Of a stretch of DNA of 34,184 nt, positions 6,882 to 34,184 are shown piece by piece. The stretch spans positions 1-34,184 of IMG/VR virus record IMGVR_UViG_3300027754_000260; one strand, given 5' to 3'. A program made the translations under genes and the position numbers. A model generated the notes under the pieces. The model saw only the letters and a list, made by a program, of their open reading frames with translations, did not search any database and had not been told where the DNA came from. Numbering within the stretch: position 1 is the first letter of the stretch; each line of letters starts with the position of its first letter. This stretch comes from a virus.

Positions 6882-7037
6882 ATGAAAACAATTAGAATCA
6901 GTCGCACAGTATTTCCAAAAGACAAACCCGAAAATTTCAATCAATGGTCGATGTGGTTCTTCGGAATGTATGCAGTAGAATTAGGGAAAGTTAAACAAGG
7001 ATTTGACAAAAATAGTTACACACCAAAAAACAAATAA
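6882..7037 (+). CDS. Small hypothetical protein, 51 aa
   Basis: First gene after a strong promoter, with its ATG in the AATATTATG context. The product begins MKTIRISRTVFPKDK and contains an aromatic cluster (NQWSMWFFGMYAVELGK), giving one amphipathic or weakly hydrophobic helix, and ends in a basic tail. I recognise no family. The four bases to the next ATG suggest an operon with the DnaA-like gene two positions downstream. Confidence 0.72.
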   Translation: MKTIRISRTVFPKDKPENFNQWSMWFFGMYAVELGKVKQGFDKNSYTPKNK

Positions 7038-7041
7038 GATT

Positions 7042-7278
7042 ATGAAAAGCAAATTAGATTTAGTGACAAAATTACACTACGAGTTAAACTTAGAGAACTT
7101 CTTTAACGTAGACATTACTCAATACAAAGTTAGTTTATTAGGATGGTACACTCCAGAACTAGAGAAACTACTATTTGATAAAGGTTATCAGATACAATGG
7201 AGCGAATTATACAAAAATATGAGATTCGATAGTGAAACAATAGCAATAGCATTAGCTGAAAAACCTATTACAATATGA
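7042..7278 (+). CDS. Small hypothetical protein, 78 aa
   Basis: The frame can be extended upstream to a TTG at 7003, but that lies inside the previous gene. The ATG at 7042 in the GATTATG context is preferred. It is soluble and acidic with tryptophans (LLGWYTPELEKLLFDKGYQIQW). Its stop overlaps the next start by ATGA, implying translational coupling with the DnaA-domain-like gene. No family is recognised. Confidence 0.78.
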   Translation: MKSKLDLVTKLHYELNLENFFNVDITQYKVSLLGWYTPELEKLLFDKGYQIQWSELYKNMRFDSETIAIALAEKPITI

Positions 7279-7703
7279 AGAACTTACAAATGCTGAAAGA
7301 TTTGGGATTAGAATTGAATATCCTACAATCAATAAGGTTTAACACAAAGATACAGTTTGATCTAGATGGGCTTGACAAATTTGTTAACGAGGTTCTGGAA
7401 TACGAACCGATAGAAGAAGTTGAACTAACGGAACAAACACCGATTAAGTTATTAGATTTGGTAGATTTTTATGGCTTAAAAGGAAGAAGCCGTAAACAAA
7501 TGTTAGTTTACAATAGAATGTTATTATCTAGTTATTTAAAGAAAAATACTACAATGACATTAAAATTTATAGGTAGTTTATTTGATTTAGAACACGATAC
7601 AATAATTTACTATTTATCTCAATATGAAAAATTAAAAACCGATAAGTACTTTCGTGAATGTACTTCTAATCTAAAATCTGATTTAAAAAGGCTTAAAATT
7701 TAG
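7275..7703 (+). CDS. DnaA domain IV-like DNA-binding protein, 142 aa
   Basis: The C-terminal half (about residues 70-140) reads like domain IV of the bacterial initiator DnaA, the helix-turn-helix that binds DnaA boxes. RSRKQMLVYNRMLLSSYL matches the basic-loop helix, and MTLKFIGSLFDLEHDTIIYYL matches the recognition helix region (family pattern SLxxIGxxFGxRDHSTV). There is no AAA+ ATPase domain, and the N-terminal 60 residues are acidic and unrecognised. A stand-alone domain IV could mark a phage origin for the host replisome, compete with host DnaA, or act as a transcription factor. The gene is followed by the first pseudoknotted RNA element. Confidence 0.72.
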   Translation: MKNLQMLKDLGLELNILQSIRFNTKIQFDLDGLDKFVNEVLEYEPIEEVELTEQTPIKLLDLVDFYGLKGRSRKQMLVYNRMLLSSYLKKNTTMTLKFIGSLFDLEHDTIIYYLSQYEKLKTDKYFRECTSNLKSDLKRLKI

Positions 7704-7724
7704 CAATAATTAATTATTTTTTTG

Positions 7725-7732
7725 TATCTTTA
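7725..7732 (+). promoter_or_regulatory. Promoter box upstream of RNA element 1
   Basis: TATCTTTA matches seven of eight positions of TAnnTTTG (final G replaced by A) and lies nine bases before the 5' arm of the structured element. No convincing -33 TTG is seen. Confidence 0.5.
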
Positions 7733-7741
7733 CAATGTGTA

Positions 7742-7820
7742 GTTACGGACACAAGTAAGAAATTTAATAAATTGCTATTGATGAGTAGAGCCGTAACCTC
7801 GAAAGTCAATAGCATTTTTT
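7742..7820 (+). ncRNA. Pseudoknotted RNA element 1 with terminator
   Basis: The 5' arm GTTACGG (7742-7748) is complementary to CCGTAAC (7791-7797). The latter lies in the apical loop of a hairpin whose main stem is TGCTATTGA (7773-7781) with TCAATAGCA (7806-7814) and whose inner stem is GAG/CTC (7783-7785, 7798-7800). Six Ts follow, and the HNH start codon is only five bases beyond. The fold matches elements 2 and 3 without sequence similarity. It is either a short terminated RNA or an attenuator controlling the homing endonuclease gene. Confidence 0.65.
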
Positions 7821-7824
7821 GTTT

Positions 7825-8331
7825 ATGGAAGAAATATTTAAAGACATACCTAACTATGAAGGTATTTATCAAGTGAGTAATTTAGGAAATGTTAAGAGTT
7901 TACCTAGAGAAATATGGAAAAATGGATTTTATATTACTAAAGAAAAAATATTAAAGCCTAATATTGGTAATGTCAATTATTGTTATGTAATTCTTTATAA
8001 AAATTCACAAAAAAAAACAATTAGAGTTCATCAACTTGTTGCTATGGCTTTTCTTAATCATACTCCTTGTGGACATAAATTAGTAGTTAATCATAAAGAT
8101 TTTAATAAACTAAATAATAATTTATATAATTTAGAAATAGTAACTAATAGAGAAAATACTAATAAAAAACATTTAAAAAGTAGTAGTAAATATGTTGGAG
8201 TTAATTGGTGTAAAAATAATCTTAAATGGAAATCTAGAATAGTTATTAATGGTAAACGTATATCTTTAGGATATTTTAAAACAGAAGAAGAAGCATATTT
8301 AGCATATGAATTAAAATTAAAAACATTATGA
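7825..8331 (+). CDS. HNH homing endonuclease 1 (NUMOD4-HNH-AP2)
   Basis: Free-standing homing endonuclease, 168 aa. The N-terminal NUMOD4 motif (DIPNYEGIYQVSNLGNVKSL, about residues 6-25) is followed by the HNH region: VHQLVAMAFLNH, then VVNHKDFNKLNNNLYNLEIV, with the His of NHKD as the expected metal/base residue. The C-terminus is an AP2-type DNA-binding unit (SKYVGVNWCKNNLKWKS ... ISLGYFKTEEEAYLAYE). Such enzymes nick or cut a target allele and are copied in by repair. The start is the ATG at 7825, not the TTG at 7819, which is inside the T-run of RNA element 1. Its stop overlaps the next start (ATGA). Two paralogues occur at 14641 and 16328. Confidence 0.92.
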   Translation: MEEIFKDIPNYEGIYQVSNLGNVKSLPREIWKNGFYITKEKILKPNIGNVNYCYVILYKNSQKKTIRVHQLVAMAFLNHTPCGHKLVVNHKDFNKLNNNLYNLEIVTNRENTNKKHLKSSSKYVGVNWCKNNLKWKSRIVINGKRISLGYFKTEEEAYLAYELKLKTL

Positions 8332-8651
8332 TAGACAAAAATCAAATCAAATACAAAAGAAAGTTAGCTCGAGAATACAGAGAGCAAATGTATTTAGAGG
8401 ATAAGAAACACTATGATAAATTAATTGGTATAATAGTAACTTGGACTCCTTTATTTATAGAATACTACGAGGAGTTAAATAGTGTTATGCCTGAGTTCTT
8501 CACCAACGATGTAATTAAGGTTCTAGAACGCAACGCAAATAGTCTTTATTATAAGAATAGCAACGAAGATAAAGACCAACTGGCACAGGAACACACCGAC
8601 AATTTAAAAGAGTTTAGAAATATTGTTGAACAAACATTTAAAGTTAAGTGA
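8328..8651 (+). CDS. Hypothetical protein, 107 aa
   Basis: It overlaps the homing endonuclease by ATGA. The protein is highly charged and helical (IKYKRKLAREYREQMYLEDKKHYDKL), with a short hydrophobic patch IGIIVTWTPLFIEYY at about 33-47 that is more likely a buried helix than a membrane span. I recognise no family. It belongs to the replication-region operon and was probably directly downstream of the DnaA-like gene before the homing gene inserted. Confidence 0.75.
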   Translation: MIDKNQIKYKRKLAREYREQMYLEDKKHYDKLIGIIVTWTPLFIEYYEELNSVMPEFFTNDVIKVLERNANSLYYKNSNEDKDQLAQEHTDNLKEFRNIVEQTFKVK

Positions 8652-8652
8652 T

Positions 8653-8871
8653 ATGGAACGTGAAATTCGCTTCAAGTGTTACCTACAAAGCGAGGGTAAC
8701 AATCAGCACAGAAAGTTATATAACTTCTTTAAAACGATTAAAAGCATTAAACAAATAGCCTACGGTGAGCATTTACGTAGCAAAGTATTAATGAAGCATA
8801 ACAGACGAGAGTTATTCGGATTTAATTTGACAAATTTTAAATCTAAATATGTGAATAATGAATGTGATTAG
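8653..8871 (+). CDS. Small basic hypothetical protein, 72 aa
   Basis: An in-frame TTG at 8623 lies inside the preceding gene, so the ATG at 8653, one base after the previous stop, is preferred. The product is basic (FFKTIKSIKQIAYGEHLRSKVLMKHNRRELFG) and rich in aromatic and Arg/Lys residues, consistent with nucleic-acid binding, but without a recognised motif. It overlaps the methyltransferase start by 14 bases. Confidence 0.72.
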   Translation: MEREIRFKCYLQSEGNNQHRKLYNFFKTIKSIKQIAYGEHLRSKVLMKHNRRELFGFNLTNFKSKYVNNECD

Positions 8872-9289
8872 TCTTTTTAACGGAATGAATACGGGTAGGC
8901 AAGCACTTGAAAACGTAGGTATTAAAGTAGATAAATACTATTCAAGTGAAATAAAGCCTTATGCTATAGAATTAACACAACATCACTTTCCCGACACTAT
9001 ACAAGTAGGGGATGTTACTAAATGGCGAGAATGGGATATTGATTGGAAAAGTATTGATTTAATATTGTCTGGAAGTCCATGTCAAGACCTCTCAGCCGCT
9101 GGTAAACGTGCAGGTATAAATGGTAAAAAATCTAGTTTGTTTTTTGTGTTTGTTGAAATTTTAGAACATATTAAATCATTAAATCCGAACGTTTTATTTC
9201 TTCAAGAAAATGTAGGTTCGGCTTCAAAACTAGATGTTGGAATAATGAGTAGAGCTTTGGGTGTTTACCCTTGTAATATAAATAGTTAA
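8858..9289 (+). CDS. C5-cytosine DNA methyltransferase, N-terminal part (in-frame stop)
   Basis: Residues 1-34 carry the SAM-binding motif I region (NVISLFNGMNTGRQALENVG, then SEIK). Motif IV is GSPCQDLSA with catalytic Cys75. Motif VI is LQENV (Glu117). The frame ends at TAA (9287-9289) exactly within the conserved segment that should read INSxLLTAQLRNR (motif VIII). The same frame continues downstream to the end of the gene at 9817, so one codon interrupts an otherwise intact 319-codon enzyme. Possibilities are a nonsense mutation (AAA to TAA is one change), a sequencing error, or a functional two-chain enzyme as in M.AquI. The expected role is masking phage DNA from restriction; no cognate nuclease is nearby. 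Confidence 0.85.
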   Translation: MNVISLFNGMNTGRQALENVGIKVDKYYSSEIKPYAIELTQHHFPDTIQVGDVTKWREWDIDWKSIDLILSGSPCQDLSAAGKRAGINGKKSSLFFVFVEILEHIKSLNPNVLFLQENVGSASKLDVGIMSRALGVYPCNINS

Positions 9290-9349
9290 CTTTTAACCGC
9301 CCAACTCAGAAACCGTTACTACTGGTCAAACATAAGAACTAAAGAAACT

Positions 9350-9817
9350 ATGTTTGATATTGTGACTGATATACCTCAACCAAAAGATAGAGGTATCATG
9401 TTTAAAGATATTATAACAGATGGTACTGTTGAAAGAGTTAAAGCATTAGCATTATTAGAAAGTGAAAGTAGAGCTTGTACAAGTCAAGATAGTATTAAGA
9501 AAAGAGCATCAAAAGAATTTATTAATATAGTATATCAAATTAATCCAAGTAAAGAAAGTAATGGACAACAACCATTTATGCAAAATAGAATATATGATGT
9601 AAAAGGTAAATCTGTATCTCTTACAGAATGTATGGGACATAAAATTAAATATCAAACAGAAGATAAATTAGTAAGAACAGTTAACCAAATAGAAATGGAA
9701 CGTTTACAGGGCTTCCCAGATGGATATACAAGTATATTATCTAAAGCAAAAGCAGGTAGTTTATTGGGTGATGGTTGGACGTTACCAATAATTGAACATA
9801 TATTTTCATTTATATAA
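9350..9817 (+). CDS. C5-cytosine DNA methyltransferase, C-terminal part
   Basis: Same frame as the upstream part. The first ATG after the in-frame stop is 9350, which would give 155 aa containing the target-recognition region, motif IX (RTVNQIEMERLQGFPDGY) and motif X (GDGWTLPIIEHI). Motif VIII (AQLRNRYYWSN) lies between the stop and this ATG at about 9302-9334. An independently started C-terminal chain would therefore lack the Q-R-R residues unless a non-ATG start is used. That makes simple two-subunit function less likely than a broken gene, read-through or sequence error. Confidence 0.82.
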   Translation: MFDIVTDIPQPKDRGIMFKDIITDGTVERVKALALLESESRACTSQDSIKKRASKEFINIVYQINPSKESNGQQPFMQNRIYDVKGKSVSLTECMGHKIKYQTEDKLVRTVNQIEMERLQGFPDGYTSILSKAKAGSLLGDGWTLPIIEHIFSFI

Positions 9818-9818
9818 C

Positions 9819-9826
9819 TATCTTTG
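9819..9826 (+). promoter_or_regulatory. Promoter box before the small lipoprotein gene
   Basis: TATCTTTG matches TAnnTTTG. A TTG at 9792-9794 lies 24 bases upstream, one more than the usual range. Transcription would start near 9833 and meet the hairpin at 9867 within about 35 bases. Confidence 0.5.
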
Positions 9827-9866
9827 CATTAACAGTAGTTTGTTCAAGCAGCAGACTCATTATATT

Positions 9867-9896
9867 AACCATTCATTAATTTGGATGGTTTTTTTT
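9867..9896 (+). terminator. Hairpin and T-run upstream of the lipoprotein gene
   Basis: AACCAT (9867-9872) pairs with ATGGTT (9885-9890) and is followed by a T-run to 9896. It sits between a TAnnTTTG box and the start codon at 9909. It therefore either ends the methyltransferase transcript or attenuates the lipoprotein gene. Confidence 0.7.
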
Positions 9897-9908
9897 ATCT
9901 TTATACCT

Positions 9909-10094
9909 ATGAAATACCTTTTAATTTTATTGCTATCCAGTTGCTCGTATTCAATTCATGAAGCCAATATGATACAACAACGTAAAACGATGCTGAAATA
10001 CGACAAGCAAAGCAAGAAAACTCAGCAGAAAATTAGAAGTGGGAGAAATGATAAAAAAAAGTTAGTGAAAAGTAGTAGTAGAAGGATAGTGTAA
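9909..10094 (+). CDS. Small basic lipoprotein, 61 aa
   Basis: The start is the ATG at 9909. The frame is open upstream to a TTG at 9792, but that crosses the terminator hairpin. Residues 1-11 (MKYLLILLLSS) form a short lipoprotein signal ending in lipobox LLSSC, so Cys12 would be lipidated. The mature chain of 50 residues is very basic and rich in Lys, Arg, Ser and Gln, ending KSSSRRIV. Phage lipoproteins of this size act in superinfection exclusion or as the outer-membrane half of spanins (Rz1-like). This one is far from the endolysin, which argues against a spanin. It directly precedes the replication origin. Confidence 0.68.
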   Translation: MKYLLILLLSSCSYSIHEANMIQQRKTMLKYDKQSKKTQQKIRSGRNDKKKLVKSSSRRIV

Positions 10095-10097
10095 ACT

Positions 10098-10297
10098 ATG
10101 ACAACTAAATTCAATTGATTATCAACACTTTAAACCTTTTGGTTGTCACATATAAAAAAATAAATTTACTAAATAAAAAAAATATTTTTCAAAAAACGCA
10201 AAGTGTAAACTTTTTGAGTTAAAACATTGATAATCAGTTAAAATTGGTTGTCACTTTGGTTGTCATTAGTTGTCATTGGTTGTCACTTGGTTGTCAT
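10098..10297 (+). other. Putative replication origin with iterons
   Basis: Five direct copies of [A/G]GTTGTCA begin at 10246, 10258, 10268, 10278 and 10289, spaced 10-12 bp, so they lie on one face of the helix. A sixth copy is at 10141 and an inverted copy (ATGACAAC) at 10098-10105. An inverted pair TGATTATCAA (10116-10125) and TTGATAATCA (10227-10236) flanks an extremely A/T-rich stretch (10150-10200) suited to unwinding. The block lies in a 362-base gene-free gap directly upstream of the primase-helicase gene. The binding protein is unknown; the DnaA-like protein at 7275 is one candidate. Confidence 0.78.
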
Positions 10298-10319
10298 AGA
10301 TATTTTTTATTAAAAACTA

Positions 10320-10348
10320 TTGTAAATTAAAATAATTAATTATATTTG
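10320..10348 (+). promoter_or_regulatory. Promoter for RNA element 2 and the primase-helicase gene
   Basis: TTG (10320-10322), 18 bases, then TATATTTG (10341-10348) is a textbook Bacteroidota promoter. The structured leader begins 10 bases after it. Confidence 0.85.
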
Positions 10349-10358
10349 TACTCGTTCT

Positions 10359-10439
10359 CATCCTACAATATAAGAACTAAAGGAATTAAAACCCTTACAA
10401 TGAAACAGAGGTAGGATGCTGTGGATTTGTGAGGGTTTT
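10359..10439 (+). ncRNA. Pseudoknotted RNA element 2 (leader of the primase-helicase gene)
   Basis: The 5' arm CATCCTAC (10359-10366) is complementary to GTAGGATG (10411-10418) in the apical loop of a hairpin. The main stem is AAAACCCTTACA (10388-10399) with TGTGAGGGTTTT (10428-10439), 12 bp with one G-U, and the inner stem is ACAG/CTGT. Only four Ts end the stem, so read-through into the gene at 10457 is likely. Length (81 nt), start distance from the promoter and fold match elements 1 and 3. Confidence 0.72.
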
Positions 10440-10456
10440 GTCATTTAATAACATTT

Positions 10457-12706
10457 ATGAAATTAGAATTAGGTAAGTTAAAAAAGTTTTTAGACGATGG
10501 TTATTCAGTAATCACAATTGGAGAAAAGAAAATTCCAAATATCCCTTGGAAGATTAGACAAGATTTACCATTTACAAAAGATGCTTTTGAAGAAGCATAT
10601 GAATTAGAATCTACTAAAGGTCAAGGTTTTTGCACTGGGTACAATGGGTTAGAAGTATTTGATATTGATTTAAAAGTACTTCCAACACTTCAAAAACAAA
10701 CAGAGTTTTGGAATGAATATTTATCTTTTTTACAAGATAATATAGCAGATTTTGAGGATAAATTTGTAATATATAAAACAGTTTCAAATGGTTACCATAT
10801 TCTTTATAAATGTGAACAAGTTGGAGGTAATCAAAAGATAGCAACTTTAAGTGATTGTAAAGAGGCTATTATTGAAACTAGGGGTATTGGCGGTTATGTT
10901 TTTATTTATGAACGTAAAGTAAGTAAATTAAGTTATTCAGAAATTCAAACTATATCAATTCATGATAGGGAGGTTTTATTTGGAGTTTCAAAATACTTTG
11001 ATAGCAAAAAAGATATTATTACAGAGAATCCAGTTAATGAAGTAGTAAAAAAAGTAACTGAGTATAATGAAAATGAAATTAAACCATGGGACGATTTTAA
11101 CGAAAAAACAACAGTATGGGAATTAATAGAATCAGATTTTACTATTGTAAGAAGATTAAAAAATAAGAATGTAATTAAAAGACATGGAGCAACTTCTGAA
11201 CATTCAGGATATATCTTTAATGATACAGGTTTTATGTTTCTTTTTTCAACAGGAACAATTTATCCAAATGAAACTTTATTAAGTCCATTTCAAGTATTTA
11301 CTTATAAATATTTTAATGGAGATTTTAAAGAAGCATCAAAGGATATTTATTCAAAAGGTTTTGGAAGTAGAATAGTTAAGAAAGTAGAACAACTTGAAAG
11401 ACAGATTGAAATTAAACAAGAAGATTTAGTTTTTCCTATTGAAATATTCCCTACTTCTATTCAGAATTATATGTTAGAATGTAATCGTACATTAAGTAGT
11501 TCAATAGATTATATGGGTTGTTCTATGCTTTGGTTAATGTCAATTATAATTGGTAATACTGTAAAGTGTGAGGTTAAAAAAGGATGGATTGAAAGTGTTA
11601 ATATTTGGTTGGCTATTGTTGGAAAGGCTGGAGTTGGTAAATCTCACAATTTAGATATTATTACTTATCCTTTAAATTTTTTAAATAATTTAGAGATTAA
11701 AAAATATGCTAAAAACTGTCAAAGATTTAACGAATATAATGCTTTGACTAAAAAAGAGAAAGCAGAAACAGAACATATTGAGCAACCGATTAAAAGCCAG
11801 TTTATTGTTTCAGATATTACTTTAGAGGCATTAGTACAACTGCATTCAGAAAATAAGAATGGTATAGCAGTAATGAAAGATGAGTTAGCAGGATGGTTTA
11901 AAGACATGAATAAATACAGAGCTGGTTCTGATTTAGAATTTTGGTTATCTAGTTGGTCAAATAAAGCAATTGCATTAAATAGAAAAACTAGCGAATCTAA
12001 CTTTGTTTCAAGCCCAATCATTCCAATATTAGGAGGTATTCAGCCAAGTGTATTAAGTCAGGTATTTACTATTGAAAATAAAGATAACGGTTTTATAGAT
12101 AGGGTTTTAACATCGTTTCCAAATGTAAAGATTGAAGAATGGAACGATGAAGAAATGGATGAAGAAATATTAGAATGGTATAAAAATTATATTATTACTT
12201 TATTTCAATCATTTAAGAAAGTACTTAAAACTGATAACGATGGAGAAATTATACCTATTATTGCTCGCTTTAATTCAGATGCAAAGGAAGAATTAAAAAG
12301 AATATTTAACGAGATAACAACTATTCAAAATTCAGAAGATGAAAATGAATATATGAAATCAATGTTACCAAAACAAAAGTCTTATATACCTCGTTTTGCT
12401 TTAATGATTAATACTTTGCAAGTTTTTGATAATGACAAGAATGAACCTTTATATTTTATTACTAAAGAATCTATTTTAAAAGCGGAAAAGTTATCTAAAT
12501 ACTTTATTTCAATGGCTAAAAAGATAAAGATTAATAGTACTGAGGTAAATGAGTATAAAGAAACTTTAAGTAAAAATAAATCATTAAGTAAAAAAGAAAG
12601 AGTAATACAGATTTATAAAGAAAACCCAGACTTTAACCGTTCAGAAGTTGCTGAATTGATTGGAGTTTCAAGACAAATGATAACTAAATACTTAAAAGAA
12701 TTATGA
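10457..12706 (+). CDS. Primase-helicase (prim-pol domain plus DUF3987 ATPase), 749 aa
   Basis: It combines primer synthesis with DNA unwinding at the phage fork. Residues about 1-180 resemble the bifunctional primase-polymerase (AEP) fold: LEVFDIDLK (about 66-73) gives the metal-binding Asp pair, VSNGYHILYK (about 108-117) supplies the conserved His, and IETRGIGGYVF (about 138-148) completes the site. Residues about 330-620 match the DUF3987 helicase-type ATPase, with P-loop GKAGVGKS (about 389-396) and acidic motif MKDELAGW (about 473-480). The C-terminus ends in a helix-turn-helix (RSEVAELIGVSRQMITKYL), perhaps for origin binding. It is next to the iterons and overlaps the following helicase gene by ATGA. 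Confidence 0.88.
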   Translation: MKLELGKLKKFLDDGYSVITIGEKKIPNIPWKIRQDLPFTKDAFEEAYELESTKGQGFCTGYNGLEVFDIDLKVLPTLQKQTEFWNEYLSFLQDNIADFEDKFVIYKTVSNGYHILYKCEQVGGNQKIATLSDCKEAIIETRGIGGYVFIYERKVSKLSYSEIQTISIHDREVLFGVSKYFDSKKDIITENPVNEVVKKVTEYNENEIKPWDDFNEKTTVWELIESDFTIVRRLKNKNVIKRHGATSEHSGYIFNDTGFMFLFSTGTIYPNETLLSPFQVFTYKYFNGDFKEASKDIYSKGFGSRIVKKVEQLERQIEIKQEDLVFPIEIFPTSIQNYMLECNRTLSSSIDYMGCSMLWLMSIIIGNTVKCEVKKGWIESVNIWLAIVGKAGVGKSHNLDIITYPLNFLNNLEIKKYAKNCQRFNEYNALTKKEKAETEHIEQPIKSQFIVSDITLEALVQLHSENKNGIAVMKDELAGWFKDMNKYRAGSDLEFWLSSWSNKAIALNRKTSESNFVSSPIIPILGGIQPSVLSQVFTIENKDNGFIDRVLTSFPNVKIEEWNDEEMDEEILEWYKNYIITLFQSFKKVLKTDNDGEIIPIIARFNSDAKEELKRIFNEITTIQNSEDENEYMKSMLPKQKSYIPRFALMINTLQVFDNDKNEPLYFITKESILKAEKLSKYFISMAKKIKINSTEVNEYKETLSKNKSLSKKERVIQIYKENPDFNRSEVAELIGVSRQMITKYLKEL

Positions 12707-14523
12707 ATATCACACAAAAAAGAACATTAGCAAAAGAGATAAAAGATATTTTAATAGTTGGTGAAATATTAGATACTGGCTCAGATTTTGAATATTTAAA
12801 TGAATATTTTAAATTACATCCAAATTATAATGAAAAATTTAATAATGGATGTACTGGTTTTATTAAAAGAAACAAAACAGAATGGGGTAAAAATTCAGAA
12901 TGTTTACATATTATTGATGAAGACTTAAATGAAATATCTATATCAGTTAATTTTCCTTTATCAATTAATAAAAAGGCTGAGGTAATTAAAGCATTTAGAA
13001 ACTCAATACATAGTGAAATAATTATATTCAAAAAAACTTTTATAAAAGGAGTTACTAAATGTGAAATATCAAATAAGATAATTAATGAATGGGAAGATAT
13101 AAATATAGATCATCATAATTTAGATTTTACAAATATTGTAGAAAAGTTTATATTTTTAAATAATTATACTTTTGAATTATTATTTGATATTGTAATCTAT
13201 AATGATTCAATAGCTTTATTTAATGATTTTGAATTTAGAGATAAGTTTGTAAAATTCCACAATGAAAACACTAATTTAAGGTTCACTTTAAAAACTGAGA
13301 ATCAAACAAAAGTATTGCCAAAATTAAGGGATTACCAGTTAGAACTTTCGCAAAAAGCAGTTGAAATTTTAAAAGATAAAAAAATAGTTTATCTAAATAT
13401 GCAACCAAGAACAGGTAAGACGTTAACCGCTTTAAACGTGGCTAAGTTGAACGGTTCTAAAAATGTTTTATTTATAACTAAAAAGAAAGCGATTAGTTCA
13501 ATTCAAGACGATTACAACAACTTTAATTTTATATTTAATATAACTATCATAAATGCGGAATCATTGCATAAGGTTGAAGATAAATATGATTTAATTATTT
13601 CAGACGAACATCATGGAAACGGAGCTTTTCCAAAACCAAGTAATCGAACTAAACTATTTAAATTAAAATATTCGTATTTACCTATGATTTTTTTAAGTGG
13701 GACGATGTCAACAGAAAGTGGCTCACAAATATTTCATCAATTTTGGGTATCTTATTATTCACCGTTTAAAGAATATGGTAATTTTTATAAATGGTCAAAA
13801 ACATTTGTAAATGTAACTCAGAAACATTTAGGATATGGAATTGTAAAAGATTATTCAGATTCTAAAATGAATTTAATCAATCCAATTATTGATGAATATA
13901 CAATTAAATACACTCAGGAAGATTCAGGTTTTAAATCGAAAGTAAATGAGAATATAATTTATTTTAATTCTTGCAATAAAAATATTATTAATAAATTAAA
14001 AAAGGATTTAATTATTGAGGGTAAAAATGAAACTATACTTGCAGATACTAATTTAAAATTAATGAGTAAAATACATCAATTAGAAAGTGGTACTGTTAAA
14101 TTTGAAAGCGGTAAAAGTATGATTTTAGATAAATCAAAAGCTGAATTTATACGTGAATATTTTAAAAATAAAAAATTAGCTATATTTTATTATTACATTG
14201 AGGAATTAGAACTATTAAAACAAGTTTTTACTAACCATACAACAGATTTAAACGAGTTTAATAATACAAATAAGCATTATATAGGGCAACAGTATTCTAG
14301 TGCAATGGGAGTTAATTTAAGTTCAGCAGATTGTTTAGTATTTTATAACTTTGGATATTCAGGAACTAATTTTTTACAATCTAGAGATAGATTAACGACT
14401 CAAAATCGTAAAGAGAATGATGTTTATTTTATTTTTGGTAAAGGAAGTCTTACCGAAAAAATTTATAAAGTAATAAGTCAGAAAAAAAACTTTACAGAAT
14501 CACAATTTAAGAAGTATATTTAG
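12703..14523 (+). CDS. SF2 (DExH-type) DNA helicase, 606 aa
   Basis: ATP-dependent helicase or translocase. The first about 200 residues are an unrecognised helical/beta domain. The helicase core then begins with LRDYQLELSQKAV (Q-like motif, about 208). Walker A is QPRTGKT (about 234-240). Motif II is SDEHH (about 300-304). Motif III is LSGT (about 331-334), and motif VI is QSRDRLTTQNR (about 559-569). The second RecA-like domain includes LAIFYYYIEELELL and the SSA-type segment before motif VI. It overlaps the primase-helicase gene by four bases, so both are likely made together. Probable roles are fork progression, recombination or origin remodelling. Confidence 0.87.
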   Translation: MNITQKRTLAKEIKDILIVGEILDTGSDFEYLNEYFKLHPNYNEKFNNGCTGFIKRNKTEWGKNSECLHIIDEDLNEISISVNFPLSINKKAEVIKAFRNSIHSEIIIFKKTFIKGVTKCEISNKIINEWEDINIDHHNLDFTNIVEKFIFLNNYTFELLFDIVIYNDSIALFNDFEFRDKFVKFHNENTNLRFTLKTENQTKVLPKLRDYQLELSQKAVEILKDKKIVYLNMQPRTGKTLTALNVAKLNGSKNVLFITKKKAISSIQDDYNNFNFIFNITIINAESLHKVEDKYDLIISDEHHGNGAFPKPSNRTKLFKLKYSYLPMIFLSGTMSTESGSQIFHQFWVSYYSPFKEYGNFYKWSKTFVNVTQKHLGYGIVKDYSDSKMNLINPIIDEYTIKYTQEDSGFKSKVNENIIYFNSCNKNIINKLKKDLIIEGKNETILADTNLKLMSKIHQLESGTVKFESGKSMILDKSKAEFIREYFKNKKLAIFYYYIEELELLKQVFTNHTTDLNEFNNTNKHYIGQQYSSAMGVNLSSADCLVFYNFGYSGTNFLQSRDRLTTQNRKENDVYFIFGKGSLTEKIYKVISQKKNFTESQFKKYI

Positions 14524-14531
14524 TATATTTG
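14524..14531 (+). promoter_or_regulatory. Promoter box upstream of RNA element 3
   Basis: TATATTTG starts directly after the helicase stop codon and is 10 bases upstream of the 5' arm of the structured element. No clear -33 TTG is present at the expected distance. Confidence 0.6.
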
Positions 14532-14541
14532 TAATTAAGTA

Positions 14542-14623
14542 ACGTCGAAAATTACTAAAAAACTTTTTTGAAACACTATTAAACGATGCCTTTTCGACGT
14601 GGCTAATTTAATGGTGTTTTTTT
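14542..14623 (+). ncRNA. Pseudoknotted RNA element 3 with terminator
   Basis: The 5' arm ACGTCGAAAA (14542-14551) is perfectly complementary to TTTTCGACGT (14591-14600), which forms the whole apical loop of a hairpin. The main stem is AAACACTATTAAA (14571-14583) with TTTAATGGTGTTT (14607-14619), 13 bp with one G-U, and the inner stem is GCC/GGC. A seven-T run ends at 14623, and the homing endonuclease ATG is at 14641. This is the clearest of the three elements. Confidence 0.75.
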
Positions 14624-14640
14624 ATTTTAAATAATGTCGA

Positions 14641-15153
14641 ATGAATAATGAAATTTTTAAAGATATACCTGAATACGAAGGGTTATATCAAGTTAGTAAT
14701 TTAGGAAATGTTAAATCATTACCTAGAAAAATATGTAATCATAAGGGTTGTCATATTTCAAAAGAAAAATTTTTAAAAGCAGGTCTTTCAAGAAAATATC
14801 TTTCTGTTGTATTATCAAACAAAACAAGTTTTAAAACATTTAAAGTTCATCAATTAGTAGCAAAATCATTTTTCAATCATTTTTCAGATGGAACAACTAA
14901 AATAGTTGTAGACCACATTAATAATATTAAGACTGATAACAGATTAGAAAATCTACAATTAATTACCAATAGAGAAAATTGTTCTAAAGACACAAAAGGA
15001 ACTTCAAAATATACTGGTGTTAGTTGGTGTAAGGTAAAAAAAAAGTGGGTAACTCGATTTAAATTTAATGGAAAGTATCTTCATTTAGGATATTTCAATA
15101 ATGAATTAGATGCAAGTTTATCATATCAGGCTAAATTAAAAGAGATATGTTAG
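14641..15153 (+). CDS. HNH homing endonuclease 2 (NUMOD4-HNH-AP2)
   Basis: 170 aa, paralogue of the enzymes at 7825 and 16328. NUMOD4 reads DIPEYEGLYQVSNLGNVKSL. The HNH segment is VHQLVAKSF followed by VVDHINNIKTDNRLENLQLI, with the DH pair as the expected active-site motif. The AP2-like C-terminus is SKYTGVSWCKVKKKW ... LHLGYFNNELDASLSYQ. It lies behind RNA element 3 and overlaps the VRR-NUC gene by seven bases. It looks like an insertion between the helicase and nuclease genes. Confidence 0.92.
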   Translation: MNNEIFKDIPEYEGLYQVSNLGNVKSLPRKICNHKGCHISKEKFLKAGLSRKYLSVVLSNKTSFKTFKVHQLVAKSFFNHFSDGTTKIVVDHINNIKTDNRLENLQLITNRENCSKDTKGTSKYTGVSWCKVKKKWVTRFKFNGKYLHLGYFNNELDASLSYQAKLKEIC

Positions 15154-15428
15154 AATCAGTTATTCAAAGTAAGATAATAAATGAAGCTAAAAAGAACGGA
15201 TATTTAGTTTTAAAGGTAGTTAAATGTAATATGAATGGTTATCCTGATATTACTTTATTTAAAGACAATAAAACAATATTTGTAGAGGTTAAAAATGAGA
15301 AGGGAATACAAAGCGAAATACAGAAATACATTCAAAAACAATTAGAAAGTAAAGGTTTTGAATATTATTTAGTTAGATCACTTGATGAATTCAAAAATAT
15401 AGTTATATTTGCTCACACAAAAATTTAA
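15147..15428 (+). CDS. VRR-NUC domain nuclease, 93 aa
   Basis: Minimal PD-(D/E)XK nuclease of the VRR-NUC family, found in phages and in FAN1, acting on branched or flap DNA. The order of conserved residues is clear: ESVIQSKIINEAKKNG (Glu and Gln of the first helix), MNGYPDITLF (the PD Asp at about residue 31), IFVEVKNEKG (the ExK at about 46-48), then IQKYIQKQLESKGFEYYLV. The length is typical of single-domain phage members. A role in recombination or Holliday-junction processing with ERF is inferred. Its start lies within the preceding homing gene. Confidence 0.88.
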   Translation: MLESVIQSKIINEAKKNGYLVLKVVKCNMNGYPDITLFKDNKTIFVEVKNEKGIQSEIQKYIQKQLESKGFEYYLVRSLDEFKNIVIFAHTKI

Positions 15429-17312: not shown

Positions 17313-18723
17313 CGAAAATGATATAATTAAAAGAAAATGTGAAACTTCATTAGAATTTTTTGTTAGATACTTCTTTAAGAAGAAATTTGGTAAAAAATTT
17401 ATAATGAATGAACATCATTATATTATAATTGAAACACTTGAAAAGATAGCTAAAGGAGAATTAAAACGAGTTATTTTCAACATTGCACCTAGATACTCAA
17501 AAACTGAATTAATAGTTAAGAATTTTATTAGTTGGTGTTTATCATTAAATGATTCAGCTAAATTCATCCATTTATCATATTCTGAACAATTAGCACTTGA
17601 TAACTCCGAAGAAATAAAAGATTTAATATCTAGTTCAGAATATCAAGAAATATTCAAATTAATAGAAATAAAGAAGGATTCAAGAGCAAAAAATAAATGG
17701 TACACTTCTAATATGGGCGGTATTTTAGCTCGTTCATCTAGTGGACAAGTAACAGGTTTTGGAGCTGGCAGAGTTGAAGAAGAAAACGAAATAAACGAAT
17801 TTATAACCGATTTAGAAAAGTATAAAAACTTTGGAGGTGCAATTATAATTGATGACCCTATAAAACCTGATGATGCTAATTCTGATACTGTAAGAGATAA
17901 AATAAACTATAAATTTGAAACAACTATTCGTAATCGTGTTAATAGTAGAAATACTCCGATTATTGTGGTTATGCAAAGATTACACGAAGAAGATTTATGT
18001 GGTTATTTACAAGACTTAGAGCCTAATGAATGGACTGTTATATCTATGCCAGTAATAAAAGAAGACGGTACGGCATTATGGGAACATAAACACACAGTTG
18101 ATGAGTTAATGAAGATAAAACAAGCTAATCCATTTGTTTTTGAAACTCAATACATGCAGAATCCAATTACTCAGGAAGGTATTTTATTTCCTATTGCACA
18201 ACTTCAAACTTATACAGAAATAGATACTAATAAAATAGAACAATTATGTGCATTTGTAGATGTTGCAACTTCAAAAGGTGGTGATTATCATTGTTGTTTA
18301 ATTGGTGGTATTATAGATAAAAAACTTTATATTTTAGATTGTATTTATACAAATGAAGGTTCTGATATTAATATTCCTAAAACTGCTGAATTACTAAATA
18401 AATGGAATCCTGAATTTGTAAGAGTTGAGAGCAATGGTGTAGGCTCATTGTATTCTAATCAATTGCAACCTTTATTAAATTATACTCAATGTTTACCTTG
18501 TCATCAATCAGTAAATAAACAAGCTAGGATATATCAAAACGCAATGTTAGTAAAACAGTTATGTGTATTCAAATCTAATTCAACTTTACAAGAAGATTAC
18601 AACCTATATTTTAAGCATTTTATTAGATATAAAGTAAATGTAACAGATCAAAAAGACGATGGAGTAGATTGTACGGATTCTTTATTAAATATGTCAAGGT
18701 CGTTCTATTTAGAAAGTTTTTAA
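17302..18723 (+). CDS. terL: Terminase large subunit, 473 aa
   Basis: ATPase and nuclease of the packaging motor. The N-terminal ATPase has a Walker A-like NIAPRYSKTE (about 60-69), Walker B and catalytic region AIIIDDPIKP (about 179-188), and VVMQRLHEEDLCGYL coupling motif. A linker YMQNP (about 284-288) precedes the RNase-H-like nuclease: CAFVDVATSKGGDYH (first Asp at about 320), VRVESNG, and the final acidic DDGVDCTDSL. The length is typical. Its stop overlaps the stop of the minus-strand portal gene by four bases, with no terminator between the converging genes. Confidence 0.95.
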   Translation: MSISENDIIKRKCETSLEFFVRYFFKKKFGKKFIMNEHHYIIIETLEKIAKGELKRVIFNIAPRYSKTELIVKNFISWCLSLNDSAKFIHLSYSEQLALDNSEEIKDLISSSEYQEIFKLIEIKKDSRAKNKWYTSNMGGILARSSSGQVTGFGAGRVEEENEINEFITDLEKYKNFGGAIIIDDPIKPDDANSDTVRDKINYKFETTIRNRVNSRNTPIIVVMQRLHEEDLCGYLQDLEPNEWTVISMPVIKEDGTALWEHKHTVDELMKIKQANPFVFETQYMQNPITQEGILFPIAQLQTYTEIDTNKIEQLCAFVDVATSKGGDYHCCLIGGIIDKKLYILDCIYTNEGSDINIPKTAELLNKWNPEFVRVESNGVGSLYSNQLQPLLNYTQCLPCHQSVNKQARIYQNAMLVKQLCVFKSNSTLQEDYNLYFKHFIRYKVNVTDQKDDGVDCTDSLLNMSRSFYLESF

Positions 18724-19928
18724 AGGGTTACAAGCTTATCAATCTCACTTCTAGTATAACCACTATTTAACAACGTGCTAATTGCATCTGCTTTCATTTT
18801 AAAGTTTTCAGCTTGTTGCTTATCATTTTCTTTCATTACTTCAATATGTGAATAGTCAAGTTCTAATATCAAACCTTTAGCAGTTAAACCTAATCTATTT
18901 GATAAATTAAAACAAAGTTGTTCTGACTCAGGAATAATTCTATTTTGATATGTTTGTCGTAAAGCTTCATTCATATTTGAAAACTTAGCATTATTAAGAT
19001 TTGAGTAAATATCTGCATTATGACCGTAAGCATCAATAATACTTTTAAAATCCGCTTCGACCTCTTCAAACAACATTAAGTCTTTTGTAGGAAAACTCAT
19101 TGACTGCCACGATAAAGGCGAACCAGTCATGATTAAAGAGCTTTGTCCATCATGAATACCGTAATCGTTTGAGTGTTGTTGTTCTATTCTTTGTCTTTCT
19201 GTATTGTTTAATGGAATACCTCCACTTGCATCTTTTGAAGCACTTGAAAGAATACCCAACGCTCCTGATTTAACTATTATTTTATTTCTAAAACCGTATG
19301 CACCACGAATATTAGATATAGGCATAGTTAACGAATGCAAAGGACTTAAACCCATTAAAGGGTTATTAGGGTTAACTATTTGAGAAAATATAATATCATT
19401 TACTTCATAAGTTGTTATACTTCCATTGCTTTCTTTTACTTCATATCTTTCTATAATATCTTCAATATTGTTTTGTTTAACATACTTACCAGTCTTAACA
19501 ACCTTAACATAAGCAGAATTAAGATTCACTAAAGTAGATGGAAAAGCACTATTATACGCTCTATTGATATAGATAAATTGATTACCATATATATTTTTTT
19601 GTATTTGATAATCCATTAACCAACTATTTTGATTTTGTACAGGGTTCGGATTAGCTAATAATTTTAATGCTTCATGATTGTCTTGAATTTCACCTTTAAG
19701 ATTTTTAACTACAAATCGACCATTTGATAACATTTGAGCATCTTTATTTATAACTATCGAAAGTTGCGGTGTTGTACGATATAACTCGAATTCATTATCA
19801 TTAATACTTACATACTCCTCTTTGGTAGTTGAATAGTTTTGATTAAAGTATTGTAAAGGAGTTGTTTTAGTAAATCTATTCGTTCCGATGTTGTAAATGC
19901 CTTGTCCTAAAATTTGAAGAAAATTCAT
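18720..19928 (-). CDS. Portal protein (HK97 gp3-like), 402 aa, on the minus strand
   Basis: The dodecameric portal forms the DNA entry vertex and docks terminase and tail. Family features include VINKDAQMLSNGRFVVKN, LLANPNPVQNQNSWLMDY, YGNQFIYINR, the DIIFSQIVNPNNPLMGLSPL stretch, and the C-terminal helical region NMNEALRQTYQNRIIPESEQL. The start is the ATG at 19926-19928. A TTG at 19949 overlaps the -7 box of its own promoter and is unlikely. The gene order terminase-portal-protease-capsid is normal, but here portal alone is inverted: it converges on terminase and diverges from the protease. Its codon use and composition match its neighbours. Confidence 0.92.
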   Translation of the reverse strand: MNFLQILGQGIYNIGTNRFTKTTPLQYFNQNYSTTKEEYVSINDNEFELYRTTPQLSIVINKDAQMLSNGRFVVKNLKGEIQDNHEALKLLANPNPVQNQNSWLMDYQIQKNIYGNQFIYINRAYNSAFPSTLVNLNSAYVKVVKTGKYVKQNNIEDIIERYEVKESNGSITTYEVNDIIFSQIVNPNNPLMGLSPLHSLTMPISNIRGAYGFRNKIIVKSGALGILSSASKDASGGIPLNNTERQRIEQQHSNDYGIHDGQSSLIMTGSPLSWQSMSFPTKDLMLFEEVEADFKSIIDAYGHNADIYSNLNNAKFSNMNEALRQTYQNRIIPESEQLCFNLSNRLGLTAKGLILELDYSHIEVMKENDKQQAENFKMKADAISTLLNSGYTRSEIDKLVTL

Positions 19929-19946
19929 ATAAATATATTTTTTTAA

Positions 19947-19984
19947 CAAATTTACATATTATTATATAAAAATGATTATTTTTG
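19947..19984. promoter_or_regulatory. Divergent promoters for portal (minus) and protease-capsid genes (plus)
   Basis: On the minus strand TAAATTTG (complement of 19947-19954) lies about 19 bases before the portal ATG. On the plus strand TATTTTTG (19977-19984) lies 19 bases before the ATG at 20003. Both match TAnnTTTG; clear -33 TTG elements are lacking in each. Confidence 0.55.
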
Positions 19985-33800: not shown

Positions 33801-34184
33801 ATGAGTAGATTACAAGACATAACGACATTTACAGATACAGAAATCAATGATTTAGATTATTTTTGGGTAAATGAAATCGAAACAAGCACCGCAACTTTAT
33901 CAATTGCTTCACCATGCGTAGTTAGTAAAAATTCACATGGTTTAGAGGTTGGTAATAAAATATCATTCACAACAACAGGAGCTTTACCAACTGGATTAGT
34001 TGCAAGTACTAATTATTTTATTATTTCTTCAGGTTTTGGAGCAAATAGTTTTAAATTATCGGCTACATTTGGCGGTACTGCAATAAATACAAGCGGAACT
34101 CAAAGCGGTGTACATACATATACTGCGTATGTGAGTAAAAAAATTACTGGTGAAAAGATAAAAACTTTAGTAGTTCCATCTACT
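33801..34184 (+). CDS. Tail spike/fibre protein, N-terminal part (continues at position 62 of the left end)
   Basis: The ATG at 33801 opens a frame without stop to the window end. Because 34124-34184 repeats 1-61, it joins in frame to the left-end segment and gives an 818-aa protein. Residues about 1-30 (MSRLQDITTFTDTEINDLDY) are the likely virion-attachment end. Residues about 34-105 form one copy of a beta domain common in phage tail proteins and often labelled E1 FCCH-like (LSIASPCVVSKNSHGLEVGN, ISFTTTGALPTGLVASTNYF, SGTQSGVHTYTAYV). The remainder is the beta-helix region at the left end. Confidence 0.85.
   Translation, partial: MSRLQDITTFTDTEINDLDYFWVNEIETSTATLSIASPCVVSKNSHGLEVGNKISFTTTGALPTGLVASTNYFIISSGFGANSFKLSATFGGTAINTSGTQSGVHTYTAYVSKKITGEKIKTLVVPST
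34124..34184. repeat. Right copy of the terminal direct repeat (contig overlap)
   Basis: It matches 1-61 in 60 of 61 positions. The single difference (34181 t versus 58 g) changes TCG to TCT, both serine. It shows circular closure and hints at two variants in the source population. Confidence 0.9.

Follow-up and report, generated by a model that had tools for sequence, protein, structure and literature searches.

The window analysed here, a virus record of 34,184 bases with a GC content of 28%, raises the question of why three stretches of its plus strand, each about 80 nt long and unrelated in sequence, can form the same pseudoknotted RNA fold, and what such RNAs would do in a phage. Positions 1-61 of the record are repeated at 34124-34184 (98% identity, one mismatch), so the window is probably a complete circular phage genome. 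The phage is of the flavobacterial type. The plus strand carries the terminase gene and almost all others, the minus strand the portal protein gene (18720-19949). A gene for a HaeIII-like C5 cytosine methyltransferase is seemingly split into two ORFs (8858-9289 and 9350-9817), of which the first corresponds to the N-terminal part and is similar to phage methylases, and the second alone contains the C-terminal Pfam match. The search for tRNA and tmRNA genes found none in the window.

The initial annotation placed the three elements (E1, E2 and E3) at 7742-7820, 10359-10439 and 14542-14623, with segments in the order A-B-A'-B' and with A paired to A' over 7, 8 and 10 bp, and all of this was recovered in the present analysis. 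The long B/B' stems comprise 10, 14 and 14 bp when G.U pairs are counted, and the inner stems 3, 4 and 3 bp. Segment A had been regarded as a free 5' arm, which does not hold, as it lies in the loop of a hairpin of its own, P1 (TGTGT/ACACA, GTTCT/AGAAC and AGTAA/TTACT). The pseudoknot is thus an intramolecular kissing complex, and each element consists of P1 with loop A, an A-rich linker, the hairpin P2/P3 with loop A', a T-run and the ATG of the next gene. The promoter box TAnnTTTG proposed for all three elements is present before E2 and E3 (TATATTTG), but E1 possesses the variant TATCTTTA. Similarly, the T-run described after each element is clear in E1 and E3 and weak in E2 (TTTTGTCATTT), and of the proposed ACTAAA-type motif only an A-rich linker (AAARNNATT-like) could be retained, not a strict motif. 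The features are as follows.

7736-7820, plus strand: whole element E1
7725..7732, plus strand: E1 -7 promoter box TATCTTTA, differing from TAnnTTTG at one base, aligned with the TAnnTTTG boxes of relatives in alignment A2
7736..7753, plus strand: E1 hairpin P1, TGTGT (7736-7740) with ACACA (7749-7753)
7742-7748, plus strand: E1 loop A, GTTACGG, inside the P1 loop
7773..7814, plus strand: E1 hairpin P2/P3, TGCTATTGAT (7773-7782) with GTCAATAGCA (7805-7814)
7784-7787 and 7801-7803, plus strand: E1 internal loop, AGTA opposite GAA
7791-7797, plus strand: E1 loop A', CCGTAAC, closed by P3 (GAG/CTC)
7815..7820, plus strand: E1 T-run, recognised from the sequence and from family statistics
7825..8331, plus strand: gene downstream of E1, NUMOD4-HNH-AP2 homing endonuclease
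10354-10440, plus strand: whole element E2
10341..10348, plus strand: E2 promoter box TATATTTG
10354..10377, plus strand: E2 hairpin P1, GTTCT with AGAAC
10359-10366, plus strand: E2 loop A, CATCCTAC, inside the P1 loop and followed by AATATA
10387..10440, plus strand: E2 hairpin P2/P3, TAAAACCCTTACAA (10387-10400) with TTGTGAGGGTTTTG (10427-10440)
10411-10418, plus strand: E2 loop A', GTAGGATG, closed by P3 (ACAG/CTGT)
3' end of the E2 P2/P3 hairpin, plus strand: weak E2 T-run TTTTGTCATTT, overlapping that end
10457..12706, plus strand: gene downstream of E2, DUF3987 primase-helicase
14538-14623, plus strand: whole element E3
14524..14531, plus strand: E3 promoter box TATATTTG, directly 3' of the stop codon of the helicase gene
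14538..14556, plus strand: E3 hairpin P1, AGTAA with TTACT (alternative GTAATT/AATTAC)
14542-14551, plus strand: E3 loop A, ACGTCGAAAA, inside the P1 loop
14570..14620, plus strand: E3 hairpin P2/P3, GAAACACTATTAAA (14570-14583) with TTTAATGGTGTTTT (14607-14620)
14591-14600, plus strand: E3 loop A', TTTTCGACGT, closed by P3 (GCC/GGC)
14617..14623, plus strand: E3 T-run
14641..15153, plus strand: gene downstream of E3, NUMOD4-HNH homing endonuclease

The window encodes three NUMOD4-HNH paralogues, starting at 7825, 14641 and 16328. The first two are preceded by the kissing leader; the third has none, lies within an operon and overlaps the preceding ORF. About 45 nt 5' of the E2 promoter and the primase leader, five copies of the iteron-like sequence ATTGGTTGTC were found at 10243-10297 with a period of 10-12, and this array is likely a replication origin. 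At the corresponding place, several other primase loci possess repeated palindromes (GTGTAAC, GTTTAAA and AAAGTGTGA).

In a symmetric architecture scan of the plus strand, E1, E2 and E3 occupied ranks 1, 2 and 3 of the window. In ViennaRNA predictions, each of the three forms P1 and P2/P3 while the two loops stay open (z about -2.6), and 3, 3 and 1 of 200 shuffled sequences were equally good. A promoter-independent descriptor scan over 1.29 Mb of related loci, with a cut-off score of at least 30, revealed 137 matches, compared with 13 in Markov-2 sequence. The TAnnTTTG box was found at the expected place in 57 of the 137 matches and in none of the 13 simulated ones, while the reversed box was found in four of the 137. 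The P1 stems are longer than in shuffled-flank controls, and in the largest group of elements P1 begins 4-7 nt past the box, near the expected +1. In some elements (in loci L086, L064, L108, L047 and, at 37470-37598, L165) the linker contains a further small hairpin, for example GGTTTTTTAACC, and can therefore accommodate an inserted domain.

E1-E3 are members of a large RNA family that is apparently undescribed. Relatives of the primase and HNH genes were taken from IMG/VR, and seventy-three box-bearing elements were present among them, a sample biased by these two query genes. About seventy cases among Bacteroidota phages are clear, far more than the further examples in related phages on which the initial annotation had made its proposal depend. 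Alignments based on sequence were made for an E2-type set (A1) and for an E1-type set (A2), and their covariation scores were 0.383 against 0.207 for shuffled alignments and 0.473 against 0.236, respectively, with slid controls well below. P1, P2 and P3 covary, and in A2 all seven kissing pairs show changes on both sides. A covariance model of A2, built from the two hairpins without the kissing pairs, retrieved E3 and E2 of the window as well as elements of cultured phages. Among its matches, 31 of 36 possess loops complementary over at least 6 nt, compared with 58 of 1260 swapped pairs (4.6%); the thirty-six include some training members, and the model itself carries no kissing information. 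A rebuilt model (R2) found matches in 18 of 25 whole virus records, with one to five copies each, and some R2 matches of marginal score lack kissing loops. With all filters off, this final hairpin-only model detected exactly E1-E3 in the window (73, 57 and 50 bits), and the next match reached 25 bits. Locus L191, absent from all training, combines P1 with a 9-bp kissing pair (GCCTTCGAC/GTCGAAGGC) and a U-run followed by an ORF. The covariation and the complementary loops bear out the earlier proposal that unrelated sequences are held in one fold by selection on structure.

The family is found in environmental Bacteroidota phages and in cultured phages of Flavobacterium, Polaribacter and Tenacibaculum, namely Flavobacterium columnare phages FCV-1 and FCL-2, Polaribacter phages P12002L/S and Tenacibaculum phage JQ. 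FCV-1 and FCL-2 share a 94% identical flank up to a promoter box (FCV-1 35867, FCL-2 37479), past which the architecture is shared, the sequence is unrelated and the genes are different. In FCV-1, the RusA gene and the next conserved gene are separated by an HNH gene that carries a promoter and a leader of its own (element 40349-40464); the corresponding site of FCL-2 lacks this HNH gene. Promoter, leader and endonuclease gene therefore look like one transferable unit. No convincing element was detected in the first 50 kb of each of the cultured phages crAss001, Cellulophaga phi38:1 and Bacteroides BF486P2. In bacterial genomes the element is very rare, and the matches are located on small or phage-like contigs. 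Of 300 Flavobacteriaceae genomes two matched, and of 395 Bacteroidota genomes one, a Psychroflexus MAG being counted in both; scans of this kind evaluate only a few candidates in each genome and overlook weak elements. A host riboregulator was rejected on this near absence from Bacteroidota chromosomes.

Isolated mismatches in P2, when P2 is defined by Watson-Crick cores only, are G.U in 21 cases and A.C in two, which indicates that the element acts as RNA of the coding strand. The GC content is 56% in the kissing arms, 29% in P1 and 40% in P2 (genome 28%), and the A:A' duplex has a mean energy of -10.1 kcal/mol. A T-run, with at least six T in the 8 nt after P2, was found in 86% of the elements and in 9.4% of 1740 control ORF upstreams. 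In nearly all elements the ATG of an ORF of at least 40 aa follows 7-28 nt beyond P2, and 70 of the 73 elements lie 3-40 nt 5' of the ATG of a co-oriented ORF. This tight coupling, together with the terminator-like T-run, argues against a free sRNA and for a cis leader. Among the primase relatives with sufficient upstream sequence, 35 of 69 possess the element directly 5' of the ATG; the same lax test was positive for 8.2% of long ORFs as a whole and for 1.7% of positions chosen at random. The genes downstream encode DUF3987 primase-helicases, replication initiation proteins (FCL-2 gp54, Polaribacter P12002L), an ssDNA-binding DUF3127 protein, an ERF recombinase, a T5orf172 nuclease, many NUMOD4-HNH endonucleases and small proteins without assigned function. 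With a promoter, a structured leader and, before the start codon, a GC-footed hairpin with a U-run, the family shows the layout of an intrinsic-terminator attenuator leader. An ATG ORF of at least five codons starting 5' of P2 was found in just 19 of the 73 elements, and a leader-peptide attenuator was discarded as a general explanation for this reason.

The initial annotation had left two uses of these RNAs side by side, stand-alone sRNAs and leaders that gate the downstream gene. The second appears to be the better alternative, with ATGs at 7825, 10457 and 14641 directly 3' of the elements. The reading we favour, with a probability of roughly 0.6, is that the element controls replication and homing-endonuclease genes as an attenuator, a conditional terminator close to the promoter. 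Each element would be the 5' leader of one phage transcription unit, with transcription starting roughly at the foot of P1. In the emerging RNA, P1 would display loop A and, after the A-rich linker, P2/P3 would display loop A', so that the two could pair into an intramolecular kissing complex. P2 and the U-run would form an intrinsic-terminator-like structure 7-28 nt 5' of the start codon, where transcription may end and the gene would be held back until a condition or factor lets the polymerase through. Loop-loop pairing may set the outcome, termination or read-through, because A:A' is the most stable pairing between the emergence of A' and that of the P2 3' strand. When the transcript is folded as it grows, A:A' is favoured before this strand emerges, and P1 together with P2/P3 only later. 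The pairing might tune the formation of the P2 terminator, or it might offer a shape to the polymerase or to a phage factor. In the final fold the kissing pair and P2 are compatible, and no mutually exclusive antiterminator is visible.

Termination cannot be universal, since E2 and the L004-L008 clade have only a weak T-run. In L004, L005, L006 and L008 the weak T-run is accompanied by a third copy of A (A''; AGTGCAG, GGGCAT, GGGCAG) that is located 3' of P2, some 10-25 nt ahead of the ATG, and changes together with A and A'. These two features suggest that the clade has a translational variant, in which A and A'' would compete for A'. A downstream copy of A beyond chance was found in the L004-L008 clade only; E2 has none by search, E1 none by inspection, and the search in E3 gave no more than a partial match of 6 nt. 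FCV-1 (L160) possesses, at about 7027-7124 and at 11949-12061, further leaders composed of promoter, hairpin and terminator whose loops are not complementary. Leaders of this type precede structural genes in FCV-1 and FCL-2 and might be related to the element as simpler forms, and the kissing loop may elaborate a wider leader scheme.

Several other functions could be served by such a fold. The element could be a stand-alone sRNA of about 80-90 nt, a terminated kissing RNA with a target in the host or the phage, the gene downstream being incidental or expressed by read-through. Its own promoter box, its terminator-like end and a structure that closes both ends suit this idea, which we nonetheless consider unlikely: the position 3-40 nt before a co-oriented ATG in 70 of 73 elements would be needless for a free sRNA, the elements of one genome share no sequence with which to address a common target, and a copy of A downstream beyond chance is confined to the L004-L008 clade. 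Alternatively, in a 5'-UTR stability or translation element, P1 would close the 5' end, the kissing would block 5'-end-dependent decay or present the start codon, and the T-run would be an unstructured AU-rich ribosome entry region. The distance of P1 from the box in the largest group, the weak T-run of E2, and the weak T-runs of L004, L005, L006 and L008 with a covarying third A that could compete for A' are consistent with such a role. However, a T-run in 86% of elements against 9.4% of controls, preceded by a P2 foot whose 3' strand is G-rich, is the signature of an intrinsic terminator, and a simple hairpin would be enough for 5' protection and would leave the kissing unexplained; overall we regard this role as quite improbable.

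A put-like antiterminator, in which the host polymerase would be bound by the kissing RNA and would then pass over later terminators, would agree with a two-hairpin RNA at the start of transcription units whose shape rather than sequence is conserved. The terminator-like T-run that ends the element would be unexpected in a cis antiterminator, though, and the element is without a strict sequence motif, so this function seems very improbable. Operator or origin repeats acting as DNA, or chance inverted repeats in AT-rich DNA, are hardly credible. The iteron-like array just 5' of E2 would fit the former, but the excess of G.U over A.C and the coupling to promoter and ATG are strand-specific, three different A sequences occur in one genome, and the random controls and the covariation of P1, P2 and P3 contradict both; inverted repeats at the DNA level were ruled out by the G.U bias.

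Within the attenuator reading, we tentatively propose a new class of phage RNA switch that is free in sequence, a possible but doubtful extension in which the state of the kissing complex, rather than a ligand pocket or an antisense RNA, would decide on the passage of the polymerase. The loop sequences A differ among all three elements of the window genome. Each copy would have its own orthogonal loop pair, so several switches could work in one genome, and in a subclade the loop would have been redirected to a third copy, from transcriptional to translational control.

The search with the Rfam 15 covariance models could not detect any family above the gathering threshold, and permissive scans gave one chance snoRNA match and none; as initially annotated, no known RNA family was recognised. 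The literature outside subscription papers yielded nothing on the element. The leader RNA of phage P4 (CI RNA, with seqA, seqB and seqC) controls termination via complementary segments on its own transcript and is part of an immunity system whose trans RNA is processed. The phage element likewise has complementary segments in a leader, three of them in the L004 clade, but A and A' are cis hairpin loops and no prophage immunity context was seen. A seqA-B-C type was rejected, as the third copy of A is present only in L004, L005, L006 and L008. The put RNA of HK022 is a two-hairpin phage leader just past the promoter, with a conserved sequence and without a terminator, and is not known for loop-loop kissing. 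The phage element is also a two-hairpin leader adjoining its promoter, but it possesses a T-run after P2 and no conserved sequence. Similar to c4 antisense RNA (RF01695), it is a phage RNA whose loops covary with their complements; c4, however, acts in trans as an antisense RNA and has another fold, and the element gave no Rfam match. Loop-loop kissing is also present in lysine and purine riboswitches, which the element resembles in its kissing loops, in a terminator as output and, in a subset, in a bulged-G/loop-E-like AGUA/GAA motif. Unlike these riboswitches, it has no conserved ligand-binding core, and all its helices are free in sequence.

Attenuators of the pT181 type lie in the leader of a replication gene, use a 5' hairpin loop in kissing and have a terminator before the gene, and the phage element is alike in these respects. 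The kissing partner in the pT181 type is a trans antisense RNA, whereas in the phage element both loops are in one transcript. A kissing-hairpin attenuator of the pT181 type has been described (PMC3753616). TAnnTTTG boxes were absent from the minus strand in 7352-8392, 9334-12127 and 13326-15399, a search that covers promoters of this type only, and a pT181-type antisense attenuator was rejected because no such antisense promoter lies over the leaders. The element appears to be a phage leader of the attenuator type, unusual in its self-kissing and in a design free of fixed sequence, and nearest in logic to pT181-type attenuators, P4 CI RNA and put RNA.

The element is probably an undescribed RNA control element. 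Without a conserved sequence it escapes ordinary homology searches, which may explain why the family seems undescribed. It offers a handle on gene timing in flavobacterial phages, a little-known matter, and on the way in which free-standing homing endonuclease genes bring along their own regulation. The family is also a source of dozens of natural orthogonal kissing-loop pairs, and its presence in cultured phages makes the element open to direct testing.
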